Assembly: GCA_029932855.1 (NCBI GenBank)
Contig: JAOZPG010000007.1
Span: 60,494 to 124,493 of the forward strand
Reading direction: 5' to 3'
Length of the DNA: 64,000 nucleotides
Source: Bacteroidales bacterium
GTDB lineage: Bacteria > Bacteroidota > Bacteroidia > Bacteroidales > VadinHA17
The notes under the pieces are model-generated. The model saw only the letters and a program-made list of their open reading frames with translations. It was not told the DNA's origin and made no database searches. Shown here in pieces: positions 41,901 through 64,000 of this stretch (position 1 is the stretch's first letter; each line of letters starts with the position of its first letter). The translations under genes were made by a program, and so were the position numbers.

Positions 41901-43670
41901 TTAAGTCACATCTACCAAGACCTTCCTGTAGGCAGCAAATATCCGGGACTTTGAAATAAAGCCTACATATTTTCCCTCATCAACCACGGGCAGGTTCCAG
42001 GCAACACTATCCCTGAACTTATCAAGGATAAGTTCCAGGTTATCATCAGTACGTATCAGTGCCCGTGGAATTATCATCAGATCTCTGACCAGGGTGCTAT
42101 CATACAGGTCATGCTGAAACATTATTTCCCTTATATTATCAAGGCTAACTATGCCTATCAGTATTTTTTCATTATCCAGAACCGGAAAAATGTTTCTTTT
42201 TGATTTGGAGACTTTCATTACCAGCTTCCCGAGTGACTCATCCGGAGATAGAACAGAAAAATCTTTTTCAATATGCTTTTTCCAGTCCATAAGTGTAAGC
42301 ACAGCCTTATCCTTATCATGAGTTATCAGCTCTCCCCTCCTGGCAAGCCTTTTCGTATATATAGAGTGAGGCTCAAAATACATTATTGTAAGGAAGGAAA
42401 CTGTAGAAGTTATTATCAGTGGTATCAACAAACCGTATCCACCTGTTATCTCGGCAATAAGGAATATTCCTGTCAGTGGAGCATGCATCACCCCGGCCAT
42501 TAGTCCCGCCATACCTGCAAGGGTATAGTTGCTCGATGACAGATTCACAGAGGGTATCCCGTTCAGCAATCCGCTAAAAAAATAACCGGCCACTCCCCCT
42601 GTAAACAATGAAGGGGCAAATATCCCTCCCACACCACCTGCACCGGTTGTAACTGCCATGGCAATGACCTTGAATAATATCAACAATCCCAGGTAAATAA
42701 GTATCAGCCCATACTGATCGATAAGTGAAGCCAGGAAACTATTTCCCAGCACCATAGCACTTTCATCCTTCAGTAAAAAAGAGATGGTCTCATATCCCTC
42801 ACCATAGAGAGCCGGAAAAACAAATATAAATATCCCCAGTGCCAGTCCCCCTGCAAATATCCTTATGCTCCTTCTCCTAATCGATGCCAGTTTAGACTCT
42901 ATAAATCCTGTTGTACGCGTAAAATAAAATGATATCAATCCTGTGAATACACCTAGTAGTGCATAAAAAGGAATATCAGACAGGCTGTATGTCTCGCGCA
43001 GGACAAAAGAAAAAAGAAAGCTCTTCCCCATAAGCAGAAAGGCCATAATAGTAGCCATAACAGAAGAAATAAGCAAAGGCACTATAGATGAAAGTGTAAG
43101 GTCAAGCATGAGCACCTCGAGAGTAAATACCACTCCGGCTATTGGGGCCTGAAAAATCCCGGCAATAGCACCTGCAGCACCACAGCCCAACATAAGGGTC
43201 CTGTCCCTGTAGTTCATGTGAAGCCATTTGCCAAGTGATGATCCCAGTGAAGCACCTGTAAGCACTATGGGTGCCTCAGCTCCCACCGATCCGCCAAAAC
43301 CAATAGTAAGCGAACTGGCTGCCATGGAGGAATAATTATTATGAAATTTCAGTATGCTGTTCTTCCTGGATATGGCAAACAGTATCTTGCTGACACCATG
43401 ACTTATATCGTCCTTAACAATAAAACCCACGAACAGGGCGGTGAGGATTATCCCCAGAAGAGGTAGTCCGAAATACAAAAGATTGCTCGAATTTATTGAA
43501 AGCGAAGTATTAAGGAGCAGCAAGAGGTAATGAATTGCCGATTTCAACAATACTGCGGCAAGACCACTTATGATACCTACAAAAAAACTCGTGATCAGCA
43601 AAAATTGCCTTGGAGGAATATGCTTTGTTCTCCAGATAAATATTTTCCTTAGTAAACCCCTTGATCTCAT
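41901..43670 (-). CDS. ClC-family chloride channel/transporter with C-terminal CBS pair (paralog 1)
   Basis: GFGGSVGAEAPIVLTG; FQAPIAGVVFTLEVLM; GAGGVGGIFAPSLFTGG; CBS domains. Confidence 0.94.
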   Translation of the reverse strand: MRSRGLLRKIFIWRTKHIPPRQFLLITSFFVGIISGLAAVLLKSAIHYLLLLLNTSLSINSSNLLYFGLPLLGIILTALFVGFIVKDDISHGVSKILFAISRKNSILKFHNNYSSMAASSLTIGFGGSVGAEAPIVLTGASLGSSLGKWLHMNYRDRTLMLGCGAAGAIAGIFQAPIAGVVFTLEVLMLDLTLSSIVPLLISSVMATIMAFLLMGKSFLFSFVLRETYSLSDIPFYALLGVFTGLISFYFTRTTGFIESKLASIRRRSIRIFAGGLALGIFIFVFPALYGEGYETISFLLKDESAMVLGNSFLASLIDQYGLILIYLGLLILFKVIAMAVTTGAGGVGGIFAPSLFTGGVAGYFFSGLLNGIPSVNLSSSNYTLAGMAGLMAGVMHAPLTGIFLIAEITGGYGLLIPLIITSTVSFLTIMYFEPHSIYTKRLARRGELITHDKDKAVLTLMDWKKHIEKDFSVLSPDESLGKLVMKVSKSKRNIFPVLDNEKILIGIVSLDNIREIMFQHDLYDSTLVRDLMIIPRALIRTDDNLELILDKFRDSVAWNLPVVDEGKYVGFISKSRIFAAYRKVLVDVT

Positions 43671-43695
43671 GGGGATAAAAGTATAAATATAAATA

Positions 43696-45468
43696 TTAAT
43701 CCTCAGACATATCCTTTATTAATTCACGGTACTTGGAAAAAACATTTGCCCTGGAAACAAAACCCAGATATTTTCCCTCATCAAGCACAGCAAGGTTATA
43801 GTGTGAAGATCCATGAAACTTGGAAGCCACTTCTTCCATCGAGTCTGTGGGAGAAACTACGGGCGTTGGCATAAACATGAGATCTCTTACATATGTAGTA
43901 TCATACATGCCCGGTTTAAATACTATATCACGAATATCATTCAGCCATACCATCCCGAGAAATATTCCTTCTGCATCAAGAACAGGAAAAATATTTCTTT
44001 CAGACTTAGAGATAAGCTTTACAAGCTCACCGAGTGTTTCATCAGGACCGATAGGATTGAACTTTGTTTCAATAAGATCTCTCACCTCCATCAGCGACAA
44101 GGCCGTTCTATCCTGATGATGGGTAAATAATTCTCCCCTTTTAGCCAACTGGTATGTATATACCGAGCTTGGCTGAAACAATCTTATCGTGGCATAAGAC
44201 AGGGTTGCAGTTATCATAAGTGGCAATAAGAGTTCATAGCCACCGGTGATCTCTGCAATAAGGAAGATGCCTGTAAGAGGGGCATGAATAACACCTGACA
44301 GCAGTCCCCCCATGGCAACCAGTGAGAAGTTCTGCTCATTAAGCTCAATTCCAAGGTAATCCAGTAGCTTCCCAAAAAACAGGCCTGCATTGGCACCGAC
44401 AAAAAGAGCAGGGGCAAAAACTCCCCCAACTCCTCCTGCCCCGAAGGTAAGAGATGTTGCAATAACCTTCAACCCGACAATCATTAACAGTAGTGTCAAC
44501 ACCTGGAAAATATTCTTATCCATACCGGAGAAGAAGTTATTGGAAAATAAGTGATCAACGCTGCCATGCAGGGCAGTGTTGGTTGACTCATATCCTTCTC
44601 CGTATAGAGAAGGAAAGACCAGAATCAATCCGCCCAGTAAAACAGCCCCTATAAGCAGCCTCCACTGCCATTTCTTTATTTTTTCAAATAAACCTGCCAC
44701 CCATATATAGGTTCTTATGAAGTATAAGGACACCAGTCCCGTAAACACCCCCAGCAAAGCAAAGTAAGGTAACTCTGAAAGATTATATGATTCAATATCA
44801 GAAATAACATAAAGGGTGTCCTGCCCTAAAAATAAATAAGATGTTATTGCACCCGTCACCGATGCGATAAGCAAAGGAATAATAGTAGCCATGGTAAGGT
44901 TTATCATTATAACCTCCAGTGCAAAAACCACAGCAGCAATGGGAGCCTTAAAAATTGCAGCCATTGCCCCGGCTGAAGCACATCCAAGCATTAATACCAC
45001 CTGCCGGTAATTGAGGCCAAACAACCTGCCAAGATTAGAGCCTATTGCCGCACCTGTCGCCAGTGTTGGCCCCTCCAGTCCCACTGAACCGCCAAAACCA
45101 ACAGTCAGTGAGCTGGCAATTACTGAAGAAAATATATTATGAGGAGGTATCTTTCCATTCCTTTTTGATATGGAATACAGGACTGTGGGAATACCATGAT
45201 CAACTTTTTTGCGCAGCAGGTATTTTATGAAAACCATAACCAGCACAAGTCCCGCCAGTGGAAGGAGCAGGCTTATATAAAAGCTCCCCGAATAATTATG
45301 CAGGCTTTCGAGACTGTGTTTTATCAGGTGCACAAGGTTCTTAATAATAACCGCACCCAGTCCCGCAAGCAATCCCGTGAAGAAACTCAGGAACATAATA
45401 AACTGGCGCTCCTTTACATAACGGATACGCCATTTATATGCTTTCAATAATAACCTTCTGAGATGCAT
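43696..45468 (-). CDS. ClC-family chloride channel/transporter with C-terminal CBS pair (paralog 2)
   Basis: DHGIPTVLYS; GFGGSVGLEGPTLATG; FKAPIAAVVFALEVIM; GAGGVGGVFAPALFVG; CBS domains. Confidence 0.95.
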   Translation of the reverse strand: MHLRRLLLKAYKWRIRYVKERQFIMFLSFFTGLLAGLGAVIIKNLVHLIKHSLESLHNYSGSFYISLLLPLAGLVLVMVFIKYLLRKKVDHGIPTVLYSISKRNGKIPPHNIFSSVIASSLTVGFGGSVGLEGPTLATGAAIGSNLGRLFGLNYRQVVLMLGCASAGAMAAIFKAPIAAVVFALEVIMINLTMATIIPLLIASVTGAITSYLFLGQDTLYVISDIESYNLSELPYFALLGVFTGLVSLYFIRTYIWVAGLFEKIKKWQWRLLIGAVLLGGLILVFPSLYGEGYESTNTALHGSVDHLFSNNFFSGMDKNIFQVLTLLLMIVGLKVIATSLTFGAGGVGGVFAPALFVGANAGLFFGKLLDYLGIELNEQNFSLVAMGGLLSGVIHAPLTGIFLIAEITGGYELLLPLMITATLSYATIRLFQPSSVYTYQLAKRGELFTHHQDRTALSLMEVRDLIETKFNPIGPDETLGELVKLISKSERNIFPVLDAEGIFLGMVWLNDIRDIVFKPGMYDTTYVRDLMFMPTPVVSPTDSMEEVASKFHGSSHYNLAVLDEGKYLGFVSRANVFSKYRELIKDMSED

Positions 45469-46753: not shown

Positions 46754-48208
46754 ATGAGATCCCTGATCATAATAATTTCTTTTGTTTTCACTTTTATTGG
46801 CATACTGGGAGCACAAATACCAGATCCTCCGCTAATCCAGGTTGTAAGAATTGAGCCCTTTACAGGCCTGAAAACAGTTGACTGGCTTCCCGGCGGATCG
46901 GCAGGTGTTAATGCATATATAATACATAAAAAAAAGGGAAACATTAATATAGCTATCGATACGGTTTATGGGATAGACAAAACTTCTTACTCCTGGAATG
47001 AAAATGATAATTTTATTACAACAGGGCCCCTGACTGTTACTGTATCTGCATGGGATACAACAAATGATGAGGAAAGTAAGTTGCCCGGACACCACAGTAC
47101 AGTTTATCTGGAAGCCAGGCTTGATGAATGCAGCTACAATCTAAGACTTGAATGGAGCAATTATACAGGCTGGGGCGACAGCCTTGATTATTACGTAGTG
47201 TTCAGGAACAATGTTCCACTTGATACATTGAATAATCAGGCCAGACTGTATTCCGATCCCGGGATTTCGGCAAAACAGTTTTATCATTACTACATACTGG
47301 CACATCATAAAGCCGGCAGGATCTCAACATCCAATGGAGACACCCTGAGTGCAACTTTCAAAACCCCACCTGAATATATCTATGCATTAGGTAACGAAAT
47401 AAGCGGGCAAAGATCCATCGAGCTGTTCTTTGATATAGGTTCCGGATCGGAGCTGGAAAGCTATTACCTGCTGCGTGCCACCAGGGCAGACGGGACTTAC
47501 GATACTGTTCAAAGTTTCACATACCAGGGTGAAGGACAGATAAGCCTCATTGATGAACTGCCTGAAGAAAAACCTTACTACTATAAACTGGCATCCATAA
47601 ACCTGTGCGGAAAGCCTGCAAGGATGTCCAACCTCAGCTCTGCCATATTCCTGTCGTCTGAAAACAAAAATATGACAAACCGGCTGAGATGGAATAAATA
47701 CCTGGAATGGGACGGGGGAGTATATAAGTATAAGATATACAGGAGCATTGACGACGGAGCACCCCTGTTCCTCGATGAACTGGCCCCTGCCGACACGTTT
47801 TATGTTGATGATATTTCAGATGCAGCCATGCAGGGCAATAAAGGGAAATACTGCTATTACATAGAGGCTTACGGCAATAACACCCTGCCGGAAAAAGCCA
47901 TATCAGGCACCAGCTGTGTCTATGCAGGTCCAATGATATATATGCCCAATGCTTTTACTCCCGATGATGACGGTATAAATGAAGAATTTTGGCCGGTATT
48001 AAACTTCCTGCCCTCTGAATACATTTTTGTAATAAGAAACCGCTGGGGAAATACACTTTTTCAGACAAATGATCCAAACGGACGCTGGGATGGCAGCTAT
48101 GCAGGAGATAAAGTTCCGGGAGGGGTTTATATTTATTTTGTAAGAGCAGTTTCACAAGACGGAAAAGCTATTGAAAAAGAAGGGCGCTTAAATGTACTTT
48201 ACCATTAA
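46754..48208 (+). CDS. Secreted protein with fibronectin-like repeats and gliding-motility-associated (T9SS type B) C-terminal domain
   Basis: Signal peptide; C-terminus MPNAFTPDDDGINEEFWPV...FVIRNRWGNTLFQTNDPNGRWDGSYAGDKVPGGVYIYFVRA. Confidence 0.9.
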   Translation: MRSLIIIISFVFTFIGILGAQIPDPPLIQVVRIEPFTGLKTVDWLPGGSAGVNAYIIHKKKGNINIAIDTVYGIDKTSYSWNENDNFITTGPLTVTVSAWDTTNDEESKLPGHHSTVYLEARLDECSYNLRLEWSNYTGWGDSLDYYVVFRNNVPLDTLNNQARLYSDPGISAKQFYHYYILAHHKAGRISTSNGDTLSATFKTPPEYIYALGNEISGQRSIELFFDIGSGSELESYYLLRATRADGTYDTVQSFTYQGEGQISLIDELPEEKPYYYKLASINLCGKPARMSNLSSAIFLSSENKNMTNRLRWNKYLEWDGGVYKYKIYRSIDDGAPLFLDELAPADTFYVDDISDAAMQGNKGKYCYYIEAYGNNTLPEKAISGTSCVYAGPMIYMPNAFTPDDDGINEEFWPVLNFLPSEYIFVIRNRWGNTLFQTNDPNGRWDGSYAGDKVPGGVYIYFVRAVSQDGKAIEKEGRLNVLYH

Positions 48209-55673: not shown

Positions 55674-58600
55674 ATGCATAAAGCCTCAGCCTATAAAGTC
55701 CGCCGCCTCTTTTTCACGGCATTTTACCTGTGGGCGACCTTAATCCTGTATTCGCAGGAAGGAGTTTCTTATATCTCTAACTTCACACCTCCGCCTGGCA
55801 CAAACACAAAGAATACTGCCATCACACAGGATAACAGGGGACTGATGCTCTTTGCAAATCAGCAAGGTATATTAAGTTTCGACGGCTACAAATGGGAATA
55901 TGCCTGTTCCGGAATAAGGCCTTACTCAATTGGCAGGGATACTGTTACATCAAGTATATTCGTGGGACTGGAAAAAAGCTTTGGATACCTGCTTAGAGAT
56001 GAGACAGGCTCATACAAATATATTCCCATCTCAGATCCGGCTTACAACTATGGCCGTATTGAGAAGATAGCCTTCAGGAAAGATGCTATATATTTTTACT
56101 CTCCTCAAAGCATCACAGTGGTAAACAGGGATGATATAAGAAACCTGCAAACAATATGGGCCGGGCAGGCTAATCCCTTTACAGGGTTCTTTTTCTATAA
56201 TGACAGGCTCTTTATTAATATTTTCAACCAGGGTCTGCACCTGCTTGTAAATAATAAGCTCTCTCCCATTGCCGGAGGCGAAGCCTTCGACAATGTATCC
56301 ATAGTATTCTATACAAAATACGATGATAACAGCTTGCTGTTTGCTACCGACAACAGCTTTCTCTACCTCTATGACGGAAACGAATTCTCAGACCTGATCA
56401 TTAAGGATGAGAGCTACCTGTTCAATGCCGTGATCACCCACGGTATTAGTATTGATAACAACAGGGTGGCACTTGCCACGCTCACCGGAGGATGTATCAT
56501 CTTTAATAAAAAGACCGGAAAAACAGAAAATATTTTCAATTACCAGTCAGGACTGCCGGATGATGAGATATATGCCATAGGCACCGACCGTGAGGGCGGT
56601 ATATGGTTAAGCCATGAATTTGGCGCCAGCAGGATAGATCTCTCACTACCGGTACTTAAGTTCGACTCATACAAGGGCCTTGAAGGCAATATATCGCAGC
56701 TGCTTATCTTTAATGACACTCTGTTCATATCCACCAGTGAAGGGGTATTCTATCTCTCAGAGGTAAAATATTACAGGAAAAGAGAAGTTTTTGTTAAAAC
56801 ACTGGTTCCTGTTTACAGCAATATCTCTTCTGCTGACAACATAAATACCAGGCAGCCTGAAAATCACCAGGTAAACCTGCCTGCAGAAAAGCAAAGCTTT
56901 CAGGAAGAAAGTAAGGAAGCCATAGCTGCAGGAAAGAAAGAAAAGATCAAGGCTAAAAGAAGATTATTCTTCAGGCTGTTTGACAAAAAACAAAAACAGG
57001 AAAAAGCTTCCCTGGCAGACAGTGAAGCAACTAACACAGATAAAGCTAAAACAACTTCAGTATCAAAGCACACGGAAAAAACAGTAAGTCCCAGAACCAG
57101 TGTCAGCTATAAAACACAGTATATTAAGAAAACCAACCTGCTGCTTGAATCTGTTGGTTATGAGTTCAGGAAAGTAAAGGGGCTTGATGCAAAATGCAGG
57201 CAGTTACTGGTTTATGATAATATGCTTTTTGTTGCTTCCAGTACCGGCCTGTACAGGATAAGCGGGAACAAAAGCAGGTATATCATTGCCGGTTCATATA
57301 TACACTCTGTCATAGCCTCACAAAAAATACCGGGCAGGCTTTATGTAGGTACAGAATCGGGAATAAGGACAGTTGACTTTGCAGCGAGGAATGTAAAAAT
57401 AAATAATCCCAATAGCGGGCTTAGCACAGCCATACATTCTGTCTGTGAAGACAATAACAAGCTATGGCTGGCTTCAGACAGAGATATTCTCTGCATGCAG
57501 ATCCCTGCAGACACTGGCAATACAAGCTTCAAAAGTTACAGGAGTCCCGGAAAGGGAGAAACAGTAATATTCAGACTGGGCAATAAAGCTGTATTCTTTA
57601 CTGAATCAGGCATTTATGACTTCAATGAGAGTAGCGGCTCTTTTGTTGAGCTCGACACCATAGTTCCAAAGCATCTCAAATCGCTAAGATGTATCTACTG
57701 CCGTGAAGACCAGTTATGGCTGAACCCGGAAGAAACATGGATTAAACTTCCTGAAATGGACTCACTGAGTTCACTGCAATCCGGTTTCCTGAAAATATTT
57801 GATGGGATACGTTATCTCTATACCGATGAAGAAAATAATTTATGGGTGGTTGACGGAAATAACAATATCAGAAAGATACTGCCAAATGAAACACTTCACA
57901 GGCCGGGGATCTTTGATATTCACATAAACGAACCTGCTACAGACCTCGTAAGTCTTGGTAGCAAGGACTTCCCCAAAGAATTCAATGTATGGGCTCCCTG
58001 CTATATCAGACCGGACCGTACCGAGTTCAAGTATTTACTTGAGGGGCTCGACCATGAATGGTCAGACTGGACCACCAACCGCAGTATCACTATCCCCTAC
58101 CTTCCTGAAGGCAGTTATACATTAAAAGTAAGTGCAAGAAACGTGCTTAATGATATTAGCGAAACAATTGAGCAGAAGATAGAAGTTACTCCTCCCTTCA
58201 CCAGATCTCTTTTCTTTTATATAATCATTGTGGTGGCGATTGGGGTTTTTCTTTACCTCTTAATTATTATCAGGGAGAGAAAGCTTAAGCATGATAAAAA
58301 AGTGCTCGAAAGGAAAGTCACAATAAGAACAAAAGAGATACAGGCACAAAAAAACGAAATAGAGAAACAAAAAAACGAGATAGCATTCCAGAAGCAGGAG
58401 ATTACCGACAGCATAGAATACGGCAAAAGAATACAAAAGGCACTTATGCGGCCAAGGTCTGCCCTTAACAAGTTACTTCCTGAATATTTTATCTTTTTCA
58501 GGCCCCGGGACCTTGTAAGTGGTGATTTTTACTGGGTTAGCCGCAAGGACGATAAGACAGTGGTAGCAGTGGCAGATTGTACGGGACATGGTGTTCCCGG

Positions 58601-59150
58601 GGCATTCCTCAGCTTCCTGGGCCATTCATTCCTCGAAGAGATATTCAATAATTTCAAGATCACCACGGCCAGCATTTTTCTCGACAGGCTAAGAGTAAAG
58701 TTCAAGGTAGCATTACACCAGTCGGAAGATCATGATGATGCCGGTGACGGTATTGATATGGGACTTTGCATTTTAGACAACAATACCATGGAGATGCAAT
58801 ATGCAGGAGCTTTAAACTCACTATATATAATAAGAAAAGGAAAGCTTATTGAGACAAAAGGTGATAAGATGCCTATTGGCTCACACCTTCTCGATAACAA
58901 ATCATTCACCAATCATAAGATAAGCCTCAATAAAGGAGATATGGTATATATGTTCACAGATGGCTTCCCCGACCAGTTCGGAGGAGAAAGAACAAAGAAG
59001 TTCAAGATCATCCCTTTCCAGCAGCTCCTTTTAAAAATACACAGGGAAACACTGAAAAAGCAGGAGGAAATACTTACCACCGAGCTGCAACTGTGGATGG
59101 GCAATGAAGCCCAGGTGGACGACATACTCGTGCTGGGAATGAAAATATAA
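55674..59150 (+). CDS. SpoIIE-family serine phosphatase with two-component-regulator-like beta-propeller and Y_Y_Y sensor region
   Basis: Propeller motifs (GGIWLSHEFGASRID), Y_Y_Y YLLEGLDHEWSDWTTNRSITIPYLPEGSYTLKVSARN, TM, coiled coil, PP2C/SpoIIE VSGDFYWVSRKDDKTVVAVADCTGHGVPGAFLSFLG. Confidence 0.94.
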   Translation: MHKASAYKVRRLFFTAFYLWATLILYSQEGVSYISNFTPPPGTNTKNTAITQDNRGLMLFANQQGILSFDGYKWEYACSGIRPYSIGRDTVTSSIFVGLEKSFGYLLRDETGSYKYIPISDPAYNYGRIEKIAFRKDAIYFYSPQSITVVNRDDIRNLQTIWAGQANPFTGFFFYNDRLFINIFNQGLHLLVNNKLSPIAGGEAFDNVSIVFYTKYDDNSLLFATDNSFLYLYDGNEFSDLIIKDESYLFNAVITHGISIDNNRVALATLTGGCIIFNKKTGKTENIFNYQSGLPDDEIYAIGTDREGGIWLSHEFGASRIDLSLPVLKFDSYKGLEGNISQLLIFNDTLFISTSEGVFYLSEVKYYRKREVFVKTLVPVYSNISSADNINTRQPENHQVNLPAEKQSFQEESKEAIAAGKKEKIKAKRRLFFRLFDKKQKQEKASLADSEATNTDKAKTTSVSKHTEKTVSPRTSVSYKTQYIKKTNLLLESVGYEFRKVKGLDAKCRQLLVYDNMLFVASSTGLYRISGNKSRYIIAGSYIHSVIASQKIPGRLYVGTESGIRTVDFAARNVKINNPNSGLSTAIHSVCEDNNKLWLASDRDILCMQIPADTGNTSFKSYRSPGKGETVIFRLGNKAVFFTESGIYDFNESSGSFVELDTIVPKHLKSLRCIYCREDQLWLNPEETWIKLPEMDSLSSLQSGFLKIFDGIRYLYTDEENNLWVVDGNNNIRKILPNETLHRPGIFDIHINEPATDLVSLGSKDFPKEFNVWAPCYIRPDRTEFKYLLEGLDHEWSDWTTNRSITIPYLPEGSYTLKVSARNVLNDISETIEQKIEVTPPFTRSLFFYIIIVVAIGVFLYLLIIIRERKLKHDKKVLERKVTIRTKEIQAQKNEIEKQKNEIAFQKQEITDSIEYGKRIQKALMRPRSALNKLLPEYFIFFRPRDLVSGDFYWVSRKDDKTVVAVADCTGHGVPGAFLSFLGHSFLEEIFNNFKITTASIFLDRLRVKFKVALHQSEDHDDAGDGIDMGLCILDNNTMEMQYAGALNSLYIIRKGKLIETKGDKMPIGSHLLDNKSFTNHKISLNKGDMVYMFTDGFPDQFGGERTKKFKIIPFQQLLLKIHRETLKKQEEILTTELQLWMGNEAQVDDILVLGMKI

Positions 59151-59164
59151 TGAAACCGGTATTT

Positions 59165-61327
59165 TTATTTCTCAGTAAGCATATTCATCATAGCTTTTAA
59201 CTCTTCAACTTCTTCTCTCAGCAGAGCAAGTTCAGATTTTTCAGCTTTTAGCTTCTCTATTTCTTTACCCTGCTTTTCAATCATCTGCTGCTGTGTCTCT
59301 ATCATTTTCTGCTGATCTTTTATTGCCTCAACCAGTATTGGTGAGACTTTTTCATATGAAACAGCCTTGTATCCTTTATCATCCGTACTAACCAGTTCGG
59401 GTACAAACTTTTCGAGCTCCTGTGCCACAAAACCAATTTGCTTAGAGTCTGAAAATTTCATCTCTGGATATTCGTCCGACCTCCAGTTATAACTTACTCC
59501 CCTCATGTTCTTAACAAGGGAAAGGGCATTATTAATTTCCTCAACATTTTTTTTCAACCTGATATCTGAAGCATCCCATGTCCCTCCCGAAGCATAAGCA
59601 TTACCCACGATATATAATGCATAACTCGAAGATCCATAATGGTTTATTCCCACATGCGCATTGATCCTCAGATACTGTGAATTAGGAATCGAACTAAAAT
59701 TGCCATACATCAAGGCATCATTCTTCTGATCAGTAAGACTTGTCCTCGTCTGATTATCCAGGAAAAAATAATTCGAACTTATAGTTGTAAACATTCCGGC
59801 ATTATGACCAATAAAAACATTATTATCACCTGAAGTAAGGTTTTTACCTGAATTTTTGCCAATACAAACGTTATAATCACCTGTTACACTCTCCTCATAA
59901 GCTCCTCCTAATCCTGCCGAATCACCTACAAACACATTCCCCGTTCCGTGGTCAAAATTTCCTCCTGCCTTGGATCCCACAAAGACATTCCCAGCCCCCT
60001 CCTCATAATAATCTCCCGCATGGTTCCCGATAATAACATCATCCGAACCATCAGACCTTGCACCTGCCCAGTTACCAATACACACATTCCTTTGGCCAAT
60101 TAGGTTCCTGAATGCAGCAGCAGCACCAATGAAAGTATTAGATGCTCCTGTATTGCTCTGACCTGTCTGGTTTCCAATCATTACATTGTCAGACCCGTTA
60201 TTATCTTCACCACAGTCACTGCCTATAAAAACATTCCTTGCTTTATTATTACTATAACCTGCATGCATTCCCACTGAAACATTGTATATTCCTGTTGCAT
60301 TATTAAAACCGGCCTCATAACCCATAAATGTATTCCACCATCCCCTTGTATTACTATAACCTGATTTATAACCTAAAAATGTATTATAACTCCCCTGAAT
60401 ATAATAGTTTAACTCTCCCAGGTTGGAATATCCTGCCTGGTAACCAATAAAGGAGTTATAGCTACCATTTTCATTTGAGGTTCCTGCCTGATAACCCAGG
60501 AAGAGGTTACCTTCACCTATTGTATTACTGGCTCCCGCTTCATGGCCAATAAAATAATTATCAGGAGTTAAATCCAGAAAATTACTAACCGGTCCTTTTC
60601 CTTTGCCGGGAGTAAACCCTCCTACGGCAAAGCCTCCACGTGATCCTTTTCCACTATCAGTATTGTCAACATATATCCTGGTACTATCCTTGGTTACCCT
60701 GAAATATTCATTTGTCTCATCCTTTCCGGGGGTAAATCCCCCTACTGCAAATCCTCCCCTGCTTCCCTTTCCTGCTCCATCCTCAACAAACATGCGTATC
60801 CCTGAATTATATACAGCCAGAATTGTCTGCCCATCAACATTCTTCACTTCAAATAAAGCAGAATCCGGATCCATTCCTATCTGGCCCTGGATACCCAGTT
60901 TATCGAATGAAGTAATTACAGGTGCACTCAGGGCATATGGAACAGAAAGAAGTTCAGAAGTTCCAAAATCCCTTAAACCGGAACCATCAATCAAATCAAT
61001 TTTGACATTTAAATAATAAGGCCCGGTGACCCAGTTTACCAACAGGGGTGTTACATCTCCCACCTTAAGGTTAAGCATACCCTCCGGGTTAGTGCTTACC
61101 CCTGACTGTATCTCTGTCCATACAGGGATACCTGTGGAACTTCCCTGCAGGATAGTGAATTGAACATTAACAACATGGTCCTTAAGCAGAGAGTTGCCAT
61201 CCTTCACAACTGCCTGATAATTAAACTTATTGGGTGCCTCCTGGGCCAGCAGATTATTTAAGCTTGATTGTTGGCTGAAAAATAATACTAATAGTAAACT
61301 AACTAAAGTTTTTGTAATAGCTTTCAT
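59165..61327 (-). CDS. Tail-fibre-domain / Peptidase_S74 (endosialidase chaperone) secreted repeat protein, paralog 1
   Basis: Signal peptide from ATG 61327 (MKAITKTLVSLLLVLFF); NxFxGYxAGxSN repeats; C-terminal ASDIRLKKNVEEI...IGFVAQELEKFVPELV then coiled coil. Confidence 0.9.
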   Translation of the reverse strand: MKAITKTLVSLLLVLFFSQQSSLNNLLAQEAPNKFNYQAVVKDGNSLLKDHVVNVQFTILQGSSTGIPVWTEIQSGVSTNPEGMLNLKVGDVTPLLVNWVTGPYYLNVKIDLIDGSGLRDFGTSELLSVPYALSAPVITSFDKLGIQGQIGMDPDSALFEVKNVDGQTILAVYNSGIRMFVEDGAGKGSRGGFAVGGFTPGKDETNEYFRVTKDSTRIYVDNTDSGKGSRGGFAVGGFTPGKGKGPVSNFLDLTPDNYFIGHEAGASNTIGEGNLFLGYQAGTSNENGSYNSFIGYQAGYSNLGELNYYIQGSYNTFLGYKSGYSNTRGWWNTFMGYEAGFNNATGIYNVSVGMHAGYSNNKARNVFIGSDCGEDNNGSDNVMIGNQTGQSNTGASNTFIGAAAAFRNLIGQRNVCIGNWAGARSDGSDDVIIGNHAGDYYEEGAGNVFVGSKAGGNFDHGTGNVFVGDSAGLGGAYEESVTGDYNVCIGKNSGKNLTSGDNNVFIGHNAGMFTTISSNYFFLDNQTRTSLTDQKNDALMYGNFSSIPNSQYLRINAHVGINHYGSSSYALYIVGNAYASGGTWDASDIRLKKNVEEINNALSLVKNMRGVSYNWRSDEYPEMKFSDSKQIGFVAQELEKFVPELVSTDDKGYKAVSYEKVSPILVEAIKDQQKMIETQQQMIEKQGKEIEKLKAEKSELALLREEVEELKAMMNMLTEK
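59800..60545 (-). repeat. Repeat region of paralog 1 encoding about 15-24 aa NxFxGYxAGxSN units
   Basis: Translated repeats: NLFLGYQAGTSNENGSYNSFIGYQAGYSN...NTFLGYKSGYSNTRGWWNTFMGYEAG... Confidence 0.85.
60602..60771 (-). repeat. Two copies, 120 bp apart, encoding GKGSRGGFAVGGFTPGK
   Basis: Motif present twice in ORF 59165..61378; DNA copies start at about 60602 and 60722. Confidence 0.85.
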
Positions 61328-61519
61328 GAATTTTTTGTTATAAGTTAGTAGTAATAGGATTCCGCTTTCCATTGTCATTATTAATGTTAAAAAATGCTTA
61401 ATAAATTCTATGCATTATCATAAAATAACATTACAATGAATACGTAAAAATAAATAAAAAGTTGTCTCCAGCTAAGGAAAAATAAGCATTGAAAGGAAAC
61501 TCTTCTCAATCCTGCATTC

Positions 61520-64000
61520 CTATTTCATATCAAGCTGTTCTAAGAAAGTCTCCACCTTTTTCAGACGTGCTTTCAGCAAATCAATCTCCCTGTCCTTTTC
61601 TGTTATTGTTTCCTCCAATTCTGCTATTTTTAAGTGATTGGTTCTAATATTCTCATTTGAATAAAGTATTATCTTATCATAATTGATCCCTTCCGGTAAA
61701 CCGTCCTCGTCGTACCAGACCAGTTTATTTAAGCCAGCTTTATCAAATTCCTCGGCTATATAACCAATCTCCCAAACATCGGGATTATCGGGACGGGTAT
61801 AGGTCTTAGGAAAAACTTTCAATAATTTAGAGAAATCATCCTTCAGGTCTGTTATATTTTCCTTAAACCGCATGGATGAATTATCATAATATAATAATCC
61901 ATTAGAACTATCCCATTGCAGATTTTTCCTATCACCATATGGAACTGATGAAACTCTAAGTTGCCCGTTTATTTTTACCCAATTATCTGCAAAACTACCA
62001 TATATCAGGTTCCCCTCGCCAATACACAACCTCTCTGATCCTGTTTCAGAATAACCGGCACCATAGCCGATGAACACGTTTCCGTGACCTGAAGCGTTAG
62101 TATATCCAGCAACCCTGCCAATAATTACATTCTCATATCCTGACACCATATTTGCCCCGGCCTGGTCGCCAATATATACATTACTATAACCTGTTGTATT
62201 TTTTATTCCTGCAGCCATTGATATAAAAACATTGCTATAACCCGTAGTATTTACCTCACCGGCCCTGTAGCCTATGCTTATATTTCCAGCTCCTTCCGCA
62301 TACCTTCCGGCATAGGGACCAAGGAATATATTATTCGCACCATTGTCATGATTCAAACCAGCATTGTAACCAATCATAATATTGTCATTGCCAGTATCAT
62401 GATCCCTCCCGGCTAAATAACCCATAAAAACATTATGTGAAGACAATGAGTTATTCCTTCCGGCCTGGTAGCCAATATTAACATTACTGCTTCCAGTTGT
62501 ATTGGAAAAGCCCGCCTGGTAGCCAATAAACGCATTATAACCTCCACTTGTATTATACCTTCCACTTTCCCTTCCTATAAATACATTATTGCTTGTTGTA
62601 TTTGCATAGCCTGCGAGGTAACCTAAGACAACATTACTGGACCCTTTATTACTATATCCGGCCTGGTAACCCAACAATACATTATATCCTCCCGTAGTAT
62701 TTAAATACCCTGTCCGGTAGCCGATAAATGCATTGTAACCTCCACTTGTATTATAGCCACCACTTTCTCTCCCAATAAATACATTATTACTTGTTGTATT
62801 ATTATATCCTGCATGGTAACCCATAAAAACATTGCTGGATCCCGTAACATTTAAATATCCTGCCTGAAGGCCAATAAATGCATTATAAGTACCTGTTGTA
62901 TTATACCTGCCACTTTCCCTTCCTATAAATACATTATTGCTTGCTGTATTTGCATAGCCTGACCGATATCCGATAAAGACATTACTTGCTCCAACAGTAT
63001 TTGAACGACCTGCCTGATATCCCATAAAAGCATTCGTGGATCCTGATGTGTTGTACCTTCCGCTTTCAAAACCCAGGAATACATTATTGCTTGCTGTATT
63101 TGCATGGCCTGCAAGAGTCCCAAGGAATACATTATTTCCTCCGGTAGTGTTTGTGTAACCTGCCTGGTTACCAATAAATATATTATTAGGACCGGTTGTA
63201 TTGGAGTATCCGGCATCATTACCCATAATAACATTTCCTGAACCGGTAGTGTTTGATCGTCCTGCTCTATAACCCATAAAAGCATTATTGCTTCCCGACC
63301 TGGTACTATAACCGGACTGATAGCCTATATAAGTATTATAATTGGGATCTGTTGAACCGTTTCCGGAATAGTATCCACTTTGATATCCCAGATAAGTATT
63401 GTAATCCCCATCAGCATTATAGTAACCTGATCTGTATCCCATAAACAGATTGTTGGCGCCTATTGTATTGTAATAACCTGCATCATTCCCTATAAACACA
63501 TTACTTGAACCCGATGTATTTGAATGACCGGAGCGATACCCCAGAAACACATTGTAAGAGCCATTGCTGTTTAAGTATCCTGATTGATATCCAAAAAATG
63601 AATTGTAGTTACCTGAAATATTTGTTAATCCTGCCTGCTTACCGATAAAAGAATTCCCACCACCTATAGTGTTGGAAGTCCCGGAATAACTGCCAATAAA
63701 TGAATTATCTGTTCCTGCTGTATTAGATTTACCACTTTCTATGCCTACAAAAGTATTGTTGTTTCCCGTTGCATTAGAATATCCACTCTGAACACCCAGG
63801 AAAAGGTTATTATCTCCTGTAGTATTGCTGTAACCACTCTGGTAACCAAAAAATGAATTACTACCCCCTTCCGTTGTTGCAATACCAGTCTGATATCCAA
63901 GGAAGGAATTATATACCCCGGATGTAATGGAAGAGCCACTCTCATGACCAATAAAATAATTATCAGGTGACATATTCATAAAGTCTGTTGCAGGTCCTTT
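61520..64000 (-). CDS. Tail-fibre-domain / Peptidase_S74 repeat protein, paralog 2 (partial; N-terminus beyond window)
   Basis: More than 30 NxFxGYxAGYxNTTG repeats; C-terminal SSMRFKENITDLKDDF...IGYIAEEFDKAGL and coiled coil; frame open through 64000 (KGPATDFMNMSPDNYF). Confidence 0.9.
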   Translation of the reverse strand, partial: KGPATDFMNMSPDNYFIGHESGSSITSGVYNSFLGYQTGIATTEGGSNSFFGYQSGYSNTTGDNNLFLGVQSGYSNATGNNNTFVGIESGKSNTAGTDNSFIGSYSGTSNTIGGGNSFIGKQAGLTNISGNYNSFFGYQSGYLNSNGSYNVFLGYRSGHSNTSGSSNVFIGNDAGYYNTIGANNLFMGYRSGYYNADGDYNTYLGYQSGYYSGNGSTDPNYNTYIGYQSGYSTRSGSNNAFMGYRAGRSNTTGSGNVIMGNDAGYSNTTGPNNIFIGNQAGYTNTTGGNNVFLGTLAGHANTASNNVFLGFESGRYNTSGSTNAFMGYQAGRSNTVGASNVFIGYRSGYANTASNNVFIGRESGRYNTTGTYNAFIGLQAGYLNVTGSSNVFMGYHAGYNNTTSNNVFIGRESGGYNTSGGYNAFIGYRTGYLNTTGGYNVLLGYQAGYSNKGSSNVVLGYLAGYANTTSNNVFIGRESGRYNTSGGYNAFIGYQAGFSNTTGSSNVNIGYQAGRNNSLSSHNVFMGYLAGRDHDTGNDNIMIGYNAGLNHDNGANNIFLGPYAGRYAEGAGNISIGYRAGEVNTTGYSNVFISMAAGIKNTTGYSNVYIGDQAGANMVSGYENVIIGRVAGYTNASGHGNVFIGYGAGYSETGSERLCIGEGNLIYGSFADNWVKINGQLRVSSVPYGDRKNLQWDSSNGLLYYDNSSMRFKENITDLKDDFSKLLKVFPKTYTRPDNPDVWEIGYIAEEFDKAGLNKLVWYDEDGLPEGINYDKIILYSNENIRTNHLKIAELEETITEKDREIDLLKARLKKVETFLEQLDMK
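62562..63210 (-). repeat. Higher-order repeat, 150-bp unit (three 15-18 aa sub-repeats)
   Basis: CCACTTT/CCGCTTT anchor (encoding ESGRYN) at 62562, 62760, 62910, 63060: spacings 198, 150, 150. Confidence 0.85.

Follow-up and report, generated by a model that had tools for sequence, protein, structure and literature searches.

The window analysed here, a stretch of 64,000 nucleotides (G000:C19:60494-124493), belongs to a genome of 2.62 Mb in 44 contigs, and its base 64000 coincides with the end of contig C19 (C19:124493). At this end lie two genes on the minus strand. As stated in the initial annotation, both carry the signature KGP-x3-F-x3-PDNYFIGHE, which occurs as KGPVSNFLDLTPDNYFIGHE and KGPATDFMNMSPDNYFIGHE; ORFs and sequence bore this out.

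Gene 1 (59165-61327, minus strand) encodes an S74 fibre protein of 720 amino acids, which we call MAT-like for the reasons given below, as counted from Met18 of the complete ORF 59165-61378. This residue (at 61327), aligned with the starts of the paralogues, is the likely initiation site; from it the protein best shows the Sec signal peptide ascribed to this copy (61244-61327), with the cleavage site LLA|Q, an ending such as the Bacteroidetes Q-rule predicts (PMC5837995). The signal peptide is followed by an N-domain of about 105 residues (60929-61243; FNYQAV...LLSVPYAL), recognized by its homology to Bdello_MAT_N and modelled as beta-rich (pLDDT ~80-90), and by a linker (60602-60859) comprising LFEVK..AVYNSGIRM and two KGSRGGFAVGGFTPGK repeats. 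The shaft (59570-60601) consists of 17-residue NxFxGYxAGxxN repeats and is predicted from repeat statistics and the model to form a beta-solenoid. At the C-terminal end are an S74 chaperone/protease domain (59390-59569; PF13884, E = 8e-16) bearing the Ser-Lys motif SDIRLK (ORF residues 604-609) and a coiled coil recognized in model and sequence (59168-59356).

Gene 2 (61520-64000, minus strand) was called as an ORF of 826 codons for a paralogous fibre protein, open at its 5' end; it lacks a start because contig C19 stops at window base 64000. It comprises a shaft of about 39 turns of 17 residues (62021-63961), a divergent S74 domain (61727-61879; PF13884, E = 4.5e-6) with the motif SSMRFK, and a C-terminal coiled coil likewise recognized in model and sequence (61526-61657). 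The tandem repeats proved real when compared with shuffled sequences, the lag-17 identity being 67 versus 22.3 ± 4.5 in gene 1 (z = 10; 13 strict turns) and 263 versus 63.8 ± 7.5 in gene 2 (z = 27; 39 strict turns). A promoter and terminator scan yielded nothing informative.

The pair is surrounded by housekeeping genes (RelA/SpoT, Fur, adenylosuccinate synthetase and acyl-CoA ligase) and by no prophage, in accordance with the bacterial chromosomal setting originally proposed. The other fibre loci of the genome, described below, lie among mnmE, sucD, typA and rnhA-like genes. A gene for a Reg_prop/Y_Y_Y/SpoIIE phosphatase sensor (55674-59150), a possible candidate regulator of gene 1, is convergent to it and leaves a distance of only 14 nt to the gene 1 stop. 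Elsewhere the window carries a tandem pair of genes for CLC-type chloride channels that have CBS domains (41901-45468), and a gene whose product bears a CHU_C tail for type IX secretion (46754-48208).

S74 domains and predicted structures

The S74-like C-termini were confirmed by an HMM search, in which Pfam Peptidase_S74 (PF13884) matched gene 1 with 58.5 bits and gene 2 with 27.3 bits, both above the curated cut-off of 22. Together with the signal peptide of gene 1, these matches agree with the earlier description of secreted fibre-like proteins with S74 ends. The catalytic motif SDxxxK is intact in gene 1, its Ser, Asp and Lys being invariant in the compared sequences (A4); gene 2 keeps Ser and Lys and has lost the conserved Asp. 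Ser and Lys are kept in all six S74 copies of the genome (6/6), with SSxRxK replacing SDxRxK in gene 2 and in the copy C29a.

The AlphaFold model of gene 1, made with 17 homologues (mean pLDDT 66.6), displayed a confident beta-rich N-domain, short strands spaced about 17 residues apart, and an S74 end matching the MyRF ICA domain 7dc3 (Foldseek E = 1.4e-4); the match of this end to the phage chaperone 3gw6 was weaker. The model of gene 2 (mean pLDDT 71; ~80 through most of the shaft) was a regular solenoid with a strand almost every 17 residues, and a search of this fold against solved structures in the PDB gave no significant match. The monomer models of both genes thus predict a beta-solenoid, in line with the beta-roll-like repeats noted at the outset, and the terminal coiled coils appeared as long helices at residues 675-736 and 782-825. 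For the N-domain, no solved structure was found by sequence search, and the fold search returned only weak beta-sandwich matches (E about 0.1).

Fibre repertoire of the genome

The genome contains six S74 matches and eight copies of the N-domain, and from a reading of the carrier contigs the eight N-domains pair up with eight C-termini. Five genes are complete, namely gene 1, C25a (1293 aa), C25b (903 aa), C24a (879 aa) and C24b (800 aa). The remaining three are split by contig ends, their N-terminal halves lying at the start of C5, the start of C44 and the end of C29, and their C-terminal halves being gene 2, C25c and C29a, with compatible orientations. Each of the three N-terminal halves is a candidate compatible with gene 2; the suggested extension past base 64000 thus furnished further copies genome-wide but not the remainder of gene 2, since the contig ends there. 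The assembly breaks of C5, C19, C25, C29 and C44 all fall inside shared modules, as expected for near-identical repeats.

The fibre genes follow a common plan of signal peptide, conserved N-domain, GGFAVGG linker, a predicted beta-solenoid shaft that varies in length and type, and an interchangeable tip. The shafts are either of the 17-residue type or, in C24b and C29a, of the YadA_head type (14-residue), and collagen-like segments occur in C25a and C25b. Six tips are S74 and two are of other kinds, so that diverse tips are carried on a common base, as in MAT fibres; for the tip of C25b, the PDB gave no match and PHROGs a weak one only. Gene 1 and gene 2 are merely 40% identical in their shafts and 26% in their S74 domains. 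These values rule out a simple or recent tandem duplication, and the supposed origin of the pair by local duplication had to be abandoned: the two are members of a set of eight dispersed modular genes.

Comparison of the copies revealed very uneven divergence. C25a and C25b are 95-100% identical at the DNA level in the N-module (dS 0.05) versus 70% in the linker (dS 1.5). C24a and C24b share patches of ~100% identity (nt 355-475 and 625-715); the figure is 60-75% for a large part of the N-domain and 40-50% along the shaft. When C24a was compared with what appears to be its orthologue in a different species of the same genus, the shaft was 74% and the tip 69% identical, and the N-domain only 57%; within its own genome, the N-domain of C24a is 71-80% identical to six of the seven other copies. 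Near-identical N-domains were also found within each of two further genomes of the genus (93% and 90%). Homogenization of the N-modules is incomplete, because the N-domain of gene 1 is an outlier with 49-60% identity to the other copies of the genome; the N-domain tree was weakly supported. Gene conversion keeping the base uniform while the tips differ would best explain this pattern of sequence identity.

Distribution of the N-domain and its relation to Bdello_MAT_N

Homologues outside phage, a search for which had been recommended, were found across Bacteroidota: 67 loci were retrieved from named genomes with the N-domain, and the labels of almost all of them read Bacteroidota or uncultured. 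Among 40 relatives, 33 had the domain, in as many as 15 copies, and it was present in 35 of 148 sampled Bacteroidota genomes; none was found in viral contigs, and no relative in PHROGs. The Pfam content of 66 full-length homologues comprised S74 (23), collagen-like (21), Fib_succ (3-5), YadA_head (3), Lcl_C (2) and C1q (1).

The homology to MAT fibres rests on the NCBIfam model Bdello_MAT_N (NF053851), which matched 60 of the 66 homologues with a best E of 9.3e-16, none of them above the curated 60-bit cut-off; the match of gene 1 (E = 3.6e-6) is likewise below it. Of the 162 model positions, the matched part takes in mainly 3-80 and reaches ~109 at most. Bdello_MAT_N was detected in 28/28 tested genomes with the N-domain versus 0/8 without it, again with no match passing the curated cut-off. 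Because the base is homologous and the fibres are built alike, with nothing over the curated threshold, we use the name MAT-like and do not claim membership at that threshold.

Meanwhile, Pfam scans of the window genes, their paralogues and the 66 homologues revealed neither a YadA C-terminal anchor barrel nor a T9SS sorting tail (Por_Secre_tail, CHU_C). As the fibres have no YadA anchor and an S74 end instead, this is not type V secretion, and a YadA-type (type Vc) autotransporter was ruled out.

A small T9SS cargo protein linked to the fibre genes

Directly upstream of C25b, a gene for a 167-aa protein was found (L008:16009-16512, minus strand). It occurs once in the window's genome, by the C25 genes, and is not visibly present beside the window genes; the T9SS component SprA is encoded in the same genome (E = 1e-185). 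Its homologues of about 170 residues combine a signal peptide, a 49-residue domain of the form ...AGG...SLxxTxGE...LTQGFxQP (hereafter the TQGF domain), for which there was no Pfam match, and a Por_Secre_tail in all ten proteins tested (10/10). In about half of the named loci (also L023-L078), the gene directly upstream of a fibre gene codes for such a homologue. One locus, L061, carries a pair made up of the T9SS cargo gene and a fibre gene on a contig labelled as a Bacillus sp. MAG, which is probably a misbinned Bacteroidota contig.

The linkage was quantified in other genomes with a profile of the 49-residue TQGF part only, built from fibre-adjacent copies. Among 49 TQGF matches in the 40 relatives, 33 were within 0.83 kb upstream of the N-domain on the same strand, the median distance between the two domains being 345 nt for directly upstream pairs; three more were near on the same strand, one was far, and 12 were on contigs with no N-domain match. 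Of the 22 matches in the phylum sample, 13 were directly upstream; another 8 shared the strand of the N-domain at a distance of up to 2.6 kb. No TQGF gene near a fibre gene on the opposite strand was found among the relatives' 49 and the phylum's 22 matches. Furthermore, the domain was present in 17 of 28 genomes with the N-domain versus 0 of 20 without it (Fisher p = 6e-6, in two genome collections that may overlap and whose related genomes are not independent). Conversely, the small gene directly precedes only 33 of the 138 N-domain matches in the relatives, and most fibre genes have no copy in this position. The cargo gene accompanies fibres with several tip types, which points to the constant base.

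Discussion

According to the account of Caulton et al. (2024; PMC10769870), 21 surface fibres of Bdellovibrio, the prey-recognition fibres of a predator, have the MAT N-domain behind their signal peptide; S74, beta-sandwich, TNF-like and C-type-lectin tips are carried on this constant domain, S74 self-cleavage was demonstrated, and, as far as that account goes, the surface element holding the N-domain was left open. The role of the window genes, initially given as unknown, is narrowed by the homology of their N-domain to these adhesins and by the T9SS cargo gene linked to the family. On balance, we consider it probable that the window genes are two of an eight-gene set of secreted, surface-displayed and probably trimeric adhesive fibres, constituting a Bacteroidota branch of the MAT architecture.

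What is known of S74 proteins suggests that this domain, with the coiled coil, would trimerize the C-terminus and nucleate folding of the three-chain shaft, whereupon the Ser-Lys pair may cut off the chaperone before the Ser, the motif being full in gene 1 and changed in gene 2. The constant N-domain would form the base next to the cell, and the binding of targets, be they glycans or other cells, would fall to the variable C-terminal part. The fibres are most likely displayed on the surface of the bacterium itself. Because they are themselves devoid of a sorting tail, the most economical interpretation is that the adjacent small T9SS-sorted protein plausibly binds their common N-domain, and thereby anchors them outside or escorts them across the outer membrane. 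We tentatively extend this to a dedicated two-part display, in which the TQGF-domain cargo would serve the whole mosaic fibre repertoire and gene conversion would keep the N-modules matched to the cargo.

Secretion with no dedicated anchor, or residence of the fibres in the periplasm or matrix, with the T9SS cargo being merely another co-expressed surface protein, is somewhat doubtful. The lack of T9SS tails among the Pfam families of the 66 homologues and the many N-domain matches with no small gene directly upstream are in its favour, but it sits poorly with the constant orientation of the small gene, directly upstream at 33/49 matches in relatives and 13/22 in the phylum, with its absence from all 20 genomes devoid of the N-domain, and with its occurrence beside several tip types. 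Antigenic or specificity variation by recombination, in which the eight genes would be a cassette reservoir whose tips are swapped onto expressed N-modules, is in our estimation unlikely. The patchy 95-100% DNA identity within genes otherwise 50-75% identical would suit it, as would the assembly breaks in shared parts of the fibre genes; however, gene conversion of the base alone could account for this pattern, and no silent promoterless cassette was seen, a signal peptide and an N-domain being present in each of the five complete genes.

Least probable by far is that the genes are phage tail fibres, whether left over from a prophage, belonging to a domesticated tail or forming the receptor-binding part of an eCIS-type particle. 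The shafts and S74 domains do resemble phage tail fibres (PHROGs; 97 phage records, with 25-38% identity among the matches listed), but the Sec signal peptides obeying the Q-rule argue against it, and a prophage or tail-particle origin was rejected on account of the housekeeping genes around the pair, the neighbours of the other loci and the absence of the N-domain from viral contigs and PHROGs.

Under the preferred reading as MAT-like surface fibres, a large group of Bacteroidota proteins, routinely and anonymously annotated as tail fiber domain-containing proteins, is now tied to the prey-recognition fibres of predators. An S74 pair by itself would be nothing unusual; what makes this one of interest is the MAT link, the concerted base, by which a constant base with changing tips evolves inside single genomes, and the T9SS partner, a testable candidate for how fibres with no anchor of their own stay on the surface.

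Compared with known systems, the S74 fold and Ser-Lys motif are held in common with phage S74 tail fibres and endosialidases and with MyRF ICA, whereas the present proteins, unlike the phage fibres, are Sec-exported cellular proteins with a non-phage N-domain. The YadA_head repeats of C24b and C29a, probably a trimeric solenoid head, recall YadA, Ata and EmaA, from which the fibres differ in ending with S74 in place of a C-terminal membrane anchor. The linked small proteins belong to T9SS type A cargo (Por_Secre_tail, PF18962), and are distinguished from other such cargo by the TQGF domain and by the clustering of their genes with fibre genes; nothing on such a cargo-fibre pair was found in the literature searched. 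Like the Bdellovibrio MAT fibres, those described here have a signal peptide, a conserved beta-rich N-domain homologous over its first half, a long fibre, S74 and non-S74 tips, and numerous paralogues in one genome, 21 in the case of Bdellovibrio and 8 in the present one. Unlike them, they have an N-domain below the curated cut-off, 17-residue or YadA-type repeats not among the MAT shafts described, and a linked T9SS cargo gene, and they belong to a member of Bacteroidota with no sign of predatory life.
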